Assembly: GCF_000009765.2 (NCBI RefSeq) | Contig: NC_003155.5 | Span: 5,642,001-5,706,000, forward strand | Origin: Streptomyces avermitilis MA-4680 = NBRC 14893 | GTDB lineage: Bacteria > Actinomycetota > Actinomycetes > Streptomycetales > Streptomycetaceae | DNA: 64,000 nt | Direction: 5' to 3' | Part shown: in pieces, positions 25,187 through 28,992 of the stretch | How positions within the stretch are numbered: position 1 is the stretch's first letter | Layout of the letters: every line of letters begins with the position of its first letter | Position numbers and translations under genes: made by a program | Notes under the pieces: model-generated | The model's database searches: none | Told to the model about the DNA's origin: nothing | The model's input: the letters and a program-made list of their open reading frames with translations, nothing else

Positions 25187-25648
25187 GAGGATCCTCTGGA
25201 GCTACGGGAGCCGAAGCCGTACGTCGTGACGGCGCCCATGGATCATCACGCAGGCGGACGGGCAGGCGTCGCGCGCCCCCCTCCTACCACCGCGCTCCCT
25301 GCACGGAGGACCGGAGCCGTTCGTCCACAAGGGCGCCGATCTCCTGCCGGAGTCGCCCGTCGCGCTCACCGAGACCCGCGCAGGCGAAGCAGGCGGCGAC
25401 GCGAACGCGAACGGACCGCGGCGACGCGAACGCGAACGGACCGCGGCGACGCGAACGCGAACGGACCACGACGGCGCGAACGCGAACGGACCACGACGGC
25501 GCGAACGCGAACGGACCGCGGCGACGCGGACCCGAGCGGGCCGCGACGACCCGAGCGGGCCGCGACGACCCGAGCGGGCCACGACGGCGCGAACGCGAAC
25601 GGACCGCGGAGCCCGAAGGACTCCGCGGCCCGTCGAAGCACGGCCGGC
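25187..25648. other. 462-bp intergenic region filled by a tandem array
   Basis: The half nearest 25648 is the repeat array at 25401-25610. The half nearest 25187 should hold the promoter of the DUF4232 gene. Frames open through the array (FAFASPRSVRV type) are repeat artefacts. Confidence 0.55.
25401..25610. repeat. 25-bp tandem repeat array with degenerate 18-19-bp units
   Basis: GCGAACGCGAACGGAC starts at 25401, 25426, 25451, 25476 and 25501, exactly 25 bp apart. Three degenerate shorter units with GACCCGAGCGGGCCGC follow, then a final copy of the original core near 25589. The array lies between two same-strand lipoprotein genes. Confidence 0.9.
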
Positions 25649-26222: not shown

Positions 26223-26528
26223 CTACCAGGAGGACTTACGAACGCCCGGGAGAAATCCCGCGTGCGCTTGCTCACGCAGGTTCACCCGGGACAGGCCGAA
26301 GGCCCGGTGATAGCCGCGTGGCCGGCCGTCCACGCTGTCCCGGTTGCGTACGCGCGTGGCGCTGGCGTCGCGCGGCTGCCTGCGCAACTCCTGCTGGGCG
26401 GCGCGCCGCTCGGCCTCCGGTGTCGACGGCCGGCGGATGATCTCCGTCAGTTCGGCCCGCCGTGTGGCGTACCGCGCGACGGTCTCCTGGCGCCTGTCGT
26501 TCTTCGCGATTTTGCTCTTCTTCGCCAT
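26223..26528 (-). CDS. rpsN: 30S ribosomal protein S14, zinc-independent paralogue
   Basis: 101 residues: [20 protein letters not shown] at the N-terminus, ending [19 protein letters not shown] plus RKSSW. This is the long S14 form without any cysteine, so it cannot bind zinc, unlike the short CxxC form. It takes the S14 place in the 30S head when zinc is scarce. Its ATG overlaps the rpmB stop (TGATG), so the two are co-translated. Probably controlled by Zur from the divergent promoter. Confidence 0.95.
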
Positions 26529-26798: not shown

Positions 26799-26828
26799 TG
26801 TGGAAATGGAAGTCGTTTTCAGTAAGAT
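26799..26828 (+). promoter_or_regulatory. Promoter of rpmG operon
   Basis: -35 TTGTGG (26799-26804) and -10 TAAGAT (26823-26828) have 18-bp spacing. The -10 ends 6 nt before the rpmG ATG, suggesting a leaderless transcript. The Zur-like site lies inside the spacer. Confidence 0.55.
26807..26821. promoter_or_regulatory. Zur-like operator
   Basis: TGGAAGTCGTTTTCA is a 15-bp imperfect palindrome resembling the actinobacterial Zur box (TGAAAA...TTTTCA type). It sits between the divergent rpmB-rpsN and rpmG operons and overlaps the rpmG promoter spacer. Zinc-bound Zur would repress both sides. Confidence 0.7.
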
Positions 26829-27257: not shown

Positions 27258-28601
27258 ATGAGTCACCTCTCAGTGGTGATCGTCGGCGGGCTGCACGCCG
27301 ACGCGCGGCGGGCCGCCGTCGCACGGTTGCTCGCCGACGTACCGGGCAGCGTCGCGCTCCACCACGACCTCGCGACCGCCGCGGCGGGCACGGTCGTACG
27401 CACCGTCCGCGACGCCACCGGCCTGCTGTCGGCCGGTGAGGCCCCCCTCGTCGACGACTGCGCGTGCTGCGCCCTGCGCGAGGACCTGGTGCCGGAACTG
27501 GAGCGCCTCGCGGACGCGGGCCGCACCAGGCTGGCCGTCGTCGAGCTGTGGGACTCGGTCGAGCCGAAGGCGATGGCCGAGGTGGTGGCGGGGAGCGGGC
27601 TGCGGCTCACCGGGGTGATCACCGCGGTCGACCCCGCGCTGCTGCTGCCCTGCCTCGGCAACGGGGACGATCTCGCGGACGCCGGACTCGCCGCCGCCGC
27701 CACGGACCGGCGGACGGTCGCCGACACGTTCGCCCGGCAACTGGAGTACGCGCCCGTCCTGGCCGTCGCCGAGTCCGAGCACGCCGACGACGAGGACCGG
27801 GCCCTGCTCGCGCAGCTGCACCCGACCGCCCGCCAAGTCCCCATCGCGGGCGACCGGCCAGAGGGCTCGGCGGGCTCGGGCCACCAGGGCGGGGAGCCCG
27901 CCGACGGGCACACGGTCAACGGGCATACGGACGACGGGCACACGGTCAACGGGCATACGGACGACGGGCATACGGACGACGGGCATACGGGCGTCGGGCG
28001 CACGGAGGGTATGCGTACGGAGAGCGTGCGCGCCTCGGGACGGACACCCGCGGGCGCGCCCCTCTCGGCGCTCGCGCACGCCGCCCTCGCCGGGTTCGAC
28101 GTGGAGGCGGCCGCCGCCGCCCAGCACCCGGCGTGCGCGAGGCTGCCCGCCGAGGCCGATGCCCACGGCGTCGCCACCCTCGTATGGCACCGCAGGCGCC
28201 CCTTCCACCCCGAGCGGCTGTACACGGCCTTGGAGGATCTGACCTGCGCGGCGGCCCGGAGCCGAGGACGGTTCTGGCTCGCCGACCGGCCCGACACACT
28301 GCTGCACTGGGACGCCGCCGGGGGTGCGCTGTGCGTGGAGAACGCGGGGCCCTGGCTGGCCTCGCTGCCGGACGCGGCCTGGGACCTGGTCCCACCGGTG
28401 CGCCGGGCCGCCGCCGCGCTGGACTGGCACCCGGAGCACGGGGACTGCTGCCAGCACCTGGTCTTCACCTCGCCGGGCCTGGACCGCGACGGCCTCGAAC
28501 TCCTTCTGGAGTCCTGCCTGTTGACCGACACCGAGTACGCCGCGGGCCGCGCCGCCTGGCAACAGCTGCCGCCCGCCTTCGACACCCTCCTGGAGGCCTG
28601 A
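27258..28601 (+). CDS. CobW/COG0523-like protein with degenerate GTPase and His-rich repeat
   Basis: 447 residues. The CxCC metal motif of COG0523 zinc chaperones is present (CACC, residues 68-71). The C-terminal CobW domain ([22 protein letters not shown]) is also there. The P-loop, GxxGxGKT in active members, reads [11 protein letters not shown], and the NKxD guanine motif place reads [11 protein letters not shown], so no GTPase motif is intact. A linker at about 215-247 holds six pentapeptides (D/N)GHT(V/D), adding many His. Zinc storage or delivery to partners during zinc limitation is inferred from operon and metal ligands. GTP-driven transfer seems unlikely. Its stop overlaps the rpsR start (TGATG). 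Confidence 0.82.
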
Positions 28602-28837
28602 TGCCCCGCAAGCCCGTCCGCAAGGTCGCGTCCACGCCGCGGCCGAACCCCCTGGACCAGAACGGCATCACCTACATCGACTACAAGGACACCGATCTGC
28701 TGCGGAAGTTCCTCTCCGACCGAGGCAAGATCCGCAGCCGCCGGGTCACCCGCGTGACGGCCCAGCAGCAGCGGCTGCTGGCGAGGGCCGTCAAGAACGC
28801 GCGGGAGATGGCGCTGCTGCCGTACTCCAGCCGCTGA
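28601..28837 (+). CDS. rpsR: 30S ribosomal protein S18, zinc-independent paralogue
   Basis: 78 residues, [20 protein letters not shown] then [20 protein letters not shown] and the end [13 protein letters not shown]. Lacks cysteine, so it is the zinc-free S18 form. Translationally coupled to the CobW-like gene by TGATG. It is the last gene of the zinc-response operon; a 14-bp hairpin follows at 29013, after a minisatellite. Confidence 0.94.
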
Positions 28838-28992
28838 TCCCGAAGCCGGGCACCGGTACACGACGCCTCCGCGCGGTACGACGCCCTCCGCGCGGTACAC
28901 GACGCCCTCCGCGCGGTACACGATGACGTTCGTGCGGTACACGATGACGTTCGTGCCGCGGCCCCGACTCCGGCTTCTCCGGCACGGTCTAC
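28838..28992. other. Spacer with minisatellite after the zinc operon
   Basis: 155 bp dominated by the repeat at 28855-28954; no gene is seen. Confidence 0.5.
28855..28954. repeat. 19-21-bp tandem repeat, five units
   Basis: GGTAC(AC)GACGCCCTCCGCGC type units recur at about 28855, 28875, 28893, 28914 and 28935. The last two are changed to GGTACACGATGACGTTCGTG. Confidence 0.8.

Follow-up and report, generated by a model that had tools for sequence, protein, structure and literature searches.

A conserved MRF-like protein without GTP-binding motifs is encoded in the zinc-starvation operon of Streptomyces avermitilis

Introduction

The closest described system is MRF of mycobacteria (MSMEG_6069/Rv0106), which is encoded among or beside genes for zinc-free ribosomal proteins, according to PMC7174638 and PMC13418864. 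As described in PMC13418864, MRF has a CXXC motif, is turned over in a zinc-dependent manner by ClpS/ClpC1/ClpP1P2, and loads Mpy on zinc-free ribosomes. A 2009 paper (PMC2770081) gives Rv0106 as a protein with CxSC in which both GTPase motifs are missing, so the central oddity of the protein described below, its lack of GTP motifs, was already known for a mycobacterial relative. Among the matches listed in our literature searches, some of them judged by title, only PMC13418864 and PMC7174638 name MRF together with Mpy, and none of those listed is a publication on a Streptomyces MRF. A second relevant group is that of the ZigA-type COG0523 zinc metallochaperone GTPases. Tobiasson (2019) reportedly disputed zinc depletion as the inducer of hibernation in mycobacteria.

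Here we describe a protein encoded in the window, by which we mean the whole 64,000-nucleotide stretch of S. avermitilis DNA that was analysed. The genome that carries the gene is 9.12 Mb in size.

Results

A CobW-like protein without GTPase motifs

The gene at 27258..28601 on the + strand encodes an MRF-like, P-loop-less protein of the CobW/COG0523 fold (447 aa), as judged from its open reading frame, domain and model matches, tree position and structure model. By Pfam, the CobW_C domain occupies residues 306-421 (28173..28520, +) with 62.2 bits against a cut-off of 22, and the cobW domain scores 28.3 bits against a cut-off of 20.7. The cobW match begins at profile position 61; the P-loop part is absent. 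At the degenerate Walker A place (residues 10-20; 27285..27317, +), the protein reads GGLHADARR instead of the GxxGxGK[ST] of COG0523 GTPases, and it has AESEHADD instead of NKxD. The CxCC metal motif of COG0523/CobW G3E GTPases is present as CACC at residues 68-71 (27459..27470, +), and C68 and C71 are invariant in all 41 rows of alignment A2. The initial annotation had described a CobW-like protein that lost its GTPase motifs and retained CACC and the C-terminal domain, and this description is correct in both respects. Plain membership in the COG0523 GTPases was rejected, as Walker A and NKxD are both absent. Elsewhere the same genome encodes a canonical COG0523 protein (L001) with the motifs GFLGSGKT, NKID and CLCC, which also has a His-rich stretch.

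The missing P-loop is shared by the relatives

We found the same replacement throughout the genus. All 28 orthologues with a readable N-terminus, among 30 aligned, lack GxxGxGKT and have (G/A)LHxxxR, and CACC is kept in all 30. The motif GLHxxAR occurs in 78 of 78 parsed nearer-relative rows (81 in total, of which three yielded no frame by the pattern used). One set of relatives consisted of 80 of 553 confirmed loci; CACC was not counted on those 80 because the search patterns themselves included it. For the P-loop place, dN/dS was 0.05-0.32 in seven pairs chosen from 29 relatives; for the two domains it was 0.08-0.23.

These counts bear on the idea that the gene is a pseudogene, or that a sequencing error fell in the GTPase motifs. 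Apart from the missing motifs themselves nothing speaks for this idea, and the low dN/dS and the identical replacement in the orthologues and nearer relatives leave it with a negligible probability; a local error or pseudogene was rejected on the orthologue counts.

For a comparison across and beyond the genus, we assembled 47 P-loop-less rows (9 of them from Streptomyces) and 24 rows with the pattern GxxxxGK[ST]; 40 regions had been picked by hand from longer lists with the aim of a spread over families. The P-loop, NKxD and CxCC columns were excluded from the resulting 71-row tree, as were frames below 250 aa, the fragment L051, and eight rows that were damaged or duplicated regions fetched later (L047, L049, L054, L056, L059, L061, L062 and L063). 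All 47 P-loop-less rows fell on one side of a single branch with support 99/88. The P-loop state changed once on this tree, against a mean of 20 changes for shuffled labels, and the one-change split was recovered in 100% of 200 bootstrap trees. The loss of the P-loop, raised earlier as a possibly clade-wide trait, is thus found across the clade. The tree is unrooted, so that to speak of loss presupposes that the intact side is ancestral. The pattern suggests that the GTP motifs were lost in one old event, which puts the annotation name "GTPase MRF" in question.

The row nearest to the P-loop-less side, although on the intact side, is L050 (1435-2718), which has a long branch, keeps GFLRAGKS and has lost NKxD. 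It is possibly a half-way form between the intact and the P-loop-less proteins.

Relation to MRF and ZigA

Among the NCBIfam models, NF047431 ("ribosome hibernation factor-recruiting GTPase MRF") fits the window protein best (E 3.2e-54, 184.4 bits), followed by ZigA (NF038288; 154.7 bits). Because 184.4 bits is far below the equivalog cut-off of 375 bits for NF047431, we call the protein MRF-like and not MRF, and full membership in NF047431 was rejected. Each of the two models matches all 41 members of A2 at E ≤1e-10, intact ones included. A model match alone therefore cannot tell the two groups apart, whereas the tree and the missing motifs can. On the unrooted tree, a Mycobacteriaceae-like row (L205) that passes NF047431 with 555.6 bits groups with the window protein, and the 99/88 branch separates both from the intact COG0523 proteins.

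The window protein thus resembles MRF in being CobW-like without either GTPase motif, in keeping CxxC, in its predicted Zur-type regulation, in adjoining zinc-free ribosomal protein genes, and in its side of the tree. It differs in several ways. It has CACC where CXSC is reported for Rv0106, its score is about half the cut-off, its gene lies inside rpmG-rpmE2-x-rpsR and overlaps rpsR, its linker carries a private repeat, and recruitment of HPF by it would be by analogy. The ZigA-type GTPases have the same Pfam domains, CxxC and sometimes the same neighbourhoods; rows on their side of the tree differ in having kept GxxGxGKT and [NTSG]KxD (except L050).

The gene lies among genes for cysteine-free ribosomal proteins

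The MRF-like gene is the third in the order rpmG (L33; 26835..26999), rpmE2 (type B L31; 27005..27253), MRF-like gene, rpsR (S18; 28601..28837), all on the + strand. The genes rpmB (L28; 26528..26749) and rpsN (S14; 26223..26528) diverge from them on the - strand. All five ribosomal proteins, identified by domain or model matches, are without cysteine, and the start of rpsR overlaps the stop codon of the MRF-like gene by one base.

Between the divergent rpmB and rpmG lies a Zur-like box (26807..26821, -), recognized by its match to the 15-base Zur consensus. It is the sole match with ≤3 mismatches in the 64-kb window, where 0.03 were expected. In 70 of the 78 parsed nearer-relative rows, the best such box in the 900 bases preceding the gene also has ≤3 mismatches, a count made without a shuffled control. 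Motifs similar to this consensus are printed in PMC7174638. As in the description of MRF, the gene is therefore among zinc-free ribosomal protein genes with a Zur-like box, the box being identified by sequence only. The proposal that it belongs to a zinc-starvation operon coupled to rpsR was borne out by the neighbours, the box and the overlap.

Tandem arrays occur close to the operon: one of 25 bp at 25393-25554 (6.5 copies, 90% matches), and arrays of 21 bp immediately 3' of rpsR (28854-28956).

Linkage with the zinc-free set in other genomes

A match to a cysteine-free ribosomal protein gene was found within 2.5 kb in 34 of 40 P-loop-less rows, the window and fragment L051 included; the other six are L203, L215, L216, L218, L219 and L220. 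Seven loci were left out of this neighbour count. Among 25 intact P-loop rows, in which two P-loop genes were counted twice, at least nine, from other Actinomycetota, had such a gene within 2.5 kb, a lower bound because most intact rows had only ~1-1.5 kb of flank. Intact homologues in the same operon, together with signs of a local error, had been named as grounds for doubting a genuine loss. Such neighbours do exist, but they fall on the opposite side of the tree, and six of the nine have a P-loop-less copy in the same locus, so they are no argument for a local error. The six loci in which an intact COG0523 gene, a P-loop-less gene and cysteine-free ribosomal protein genes stand together are L197, L199, L202, L207, L222 and L229.

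We then compared the gene with cysteine-free rpsN in 61 Streptomyces genomes, of which two (G001 and G050) are only ~80% complete. Sequence matches to the MRF-like gene occurred in 47, and 45 were counted as holding it; in G024 and G044 the match was weak or in another gene. Cysteine-free rpsN was scored as present when the best match had E <1e-10, which includes partial matches in G017 (at a contig end) and G024. The two genes agreed in 56 of the 61 genomes, with both in 42 and neither in 14 (Fisher p 3.2e-9, relatedness not corrected). The gene without rpsN was found in three genomes, each with a damaged or partial copy: that of G038 is split across two frames, that of G039 has an internal TAA, and the match in G047 is limited to residues 252-445. 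Two genomes have rpsN without the gene, G020 (rpsN full-length) and G024 (rpsN partial). Damage also occurs alongside rpsN: in G027, rpsN is present and the N-terminus of the MRF-like gene is shifted (L032). The overall pattern suggests that the MRF-like gene may decay once the zinc-free set is lost.

The link to the ribosome proposed in the initial annotation is supported by both the neighbourhoods and the agreement with rpsN. The same co-occurrence, with the operon overlap, would also fit an assembly factor or chaperone for the cysteine-free ribosomal proteins, such as S18, acting without GTP and without HPF. We think this quite improbable, given that PMC13418864 describes a function in Mpy recruitment for MRF, which shares the P-loop-less side of the tree.

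The His-rich repeat is private to one strain

A 15-bp tandem repeat of 6.5 copies (27902..27999, +) encodes six GHT units within a linker that is disordered in the structure model. The units are in frame and start at residues 217, 222, 227, 232, 237 and 242, so the six-unit repeat noted earlier is real. The 15-bp tandem unit, with 6.5 copies and 85% matches between units, argues against a chance likeness. Tandem arrays are, however, frequent across the window, with 75 overlapping TRF rows.

The linker between the two domains varies greatly. Among 30 genus orthologues it has four residues in 16, five in one and 8-79 in 13, and the long linkers carry different sequence, for example GVPGAP repeats in L007. 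With wider limits, the linkers of nearer relatives span 22-136 residues (64 usable rows; 86 in the window protein) and are all longer than the shortest genus form; 12 of 78 parsed rows gave no linker, and the values for L104 (662) and L136 (0) are parsing artefacts. By the limits of the genus alignment, the window linker has seven His and the other 29 orthologues have at most two. By the wider limits it has eight, and the next true count is four (L096). The GHT repeat was in no other Streptomyces orthologue examined. Repeat-like DNA was found in 86 of 392 Streptomyces genomes, and when the best ten such loci were checked for an MRF-like gene, only the window's own locus held one. In the structure model (mean pLDDT 87.2, pTM 0.83), residues 204-259 have pLDDT <50.

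The repeat had been taken as a gain of many potential metal ligands; correspondingly, this strain's copy could be a variant with the novel ability to store zinc. This reading could draw on the seven His in residues 205-260 and on the His-stretches that PMC2770081 gives for about 40% of 887 COG0523 proteins. We regard it as very improbable, since the repeat is confined to this strain's copy, the linkers of other orthologues either have four residues or are longer with a different make-up and few His, and the region is disordered in the model. A functional His-rich gain was rejected on the orthologue linkers, the survey of repeat DNA and the modelled disorder, which lend no support to the repeat as a metal buffer. 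Most simply, the repeat is a minisatellite that is neutral and sits in a linker tolerant of change, and in all likelihood it is incidental. A His repeat confined to one strain should thus not be taken by itself as a sign of function.

Fold and residues 36 and 336

The best structural match of the model is Zn(II)-bound YjiA (Foldseek E 3.9e-10; by VIA, Z 12.5 and rmsd 8.2 over 272 aligned residues), followed by UreG (Z 10.9, rmsd 3.5 over 173). From these matches, the N-terminal domain is predicted to keep the G3E GTPase fold. YjiA carries GTPase motifs. The modelled likeness to E. coli YjiA (PDB 4ixm, 4ixn, 1nij) is one of fold, and the high rmsd suggests another placement of the two domains in the window model. 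A sequence-profile search of the PDB with eight sequences gave nothing believable (best E 0.37, stromelysin).

Two residues separate the sides of the tree. At place 36 (codon 27363..27365, +, in the window gene, where it encodes His), P-loop-less rows have His (38/47) or Tyr (7/47), and 23 of 24 P-loop-pattern rows have Asn. At place 336, 46 of 47 P-loop-less rows have Arg, and 23 of 24 P-loop-pattern rows have Lys. Residue 36 of the window protein presumably corresponds to YjiA E37 or to a residue adjacent to it. According to its title, PDB 4ixn is YjiA with E37, C66 and C67 all mutated. We infer from this that residue 36 may be a zinc ligand.

The CxxC cysteines are retained in 45 of 47 P-loop-less rows and in all 24 others. 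Their retention, and the structural match to zinc-bound YjiA, would suit a nucleotide-independent zinc chaperone or buffer that hands zinc from CxxC, perhaps with His36, to a client and has no role in hibernation. Such a protein would, however, lack the GTP motifs to which metal transfer by COG0523 proteins is attributed; its gene accompanies cysteine-free ribosomal protein genes, and the MRF model is its best NCBIfam match. We consider this reading unlikely.

Discussion

The window protein is real and conserved: it is MRF-like, lacks the GTP motifs and is encoded in a zinc-starvation operon. We think it probable, with some reserve, that in the response to zinc starvation it senses zinc through CxxC and recruits the hibernation factor independently of GTP. 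We infer HPF recruitment, zinc sensing, Clp turnover and the absence of GTP binding by the window protein, and the mechanism is best taken, by analogy, from MRF. As zinc falls, Zur would release the divergent rpmB/rpmG promoter at the predicted box, and zinc-free ribosomal proteins would then be made together with the MRF-like protein. With CxxC intact but no nucleotide site, the CobW fold may serve as a zinc-sensing protein-protein adaptor, which would bring HPF to zinc-free ribosomes. The zinc-bound protein would probably be degraded by ClpS-ClpC-ClpP, the fate reported for MRF in mycobacteria. The genome has one HPF-family match and one ClpS match. The His-rich repeat would have no part in such an adaptor.

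More tentatively, the whole P-loop-less side could be a group of actinomycetotal zinc switches that work without a nucleotide and have a single origin among ZigA-type GTPases, with the changes Asn36 to His/Tyr and Lys336 to Arg. Zinc on CxxC and residue 36, and not GTP, would then drive a shape change by which the loading of the hibernation factor is controlled in both mycobacteria and Streptomyces. We hold this possible but rather doubtful.

MRF-like proteins, studied so far in mycobacteria, are thereby extended to Streptomyces and other actinomycetes, and zinc-linked ribosome hibernation becomes testable in Streptomyces strains that are harmless.

Two minor observations concern the metal motif. 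In two P-loop-less rows of family f85, L215 (3563-4795) and L216 (3344-4639), CxxC is lost too and no cysteine-free ribosomal protein match lies within 2.5 kb; their function may have changed again. The motif reads CACC, CTCC or CPCC in the Streptomyces rows, L190 and L191, and the third residue is not Cys in the other P-loop-less rows that keep the motif; the former may have regained the middle Cys.
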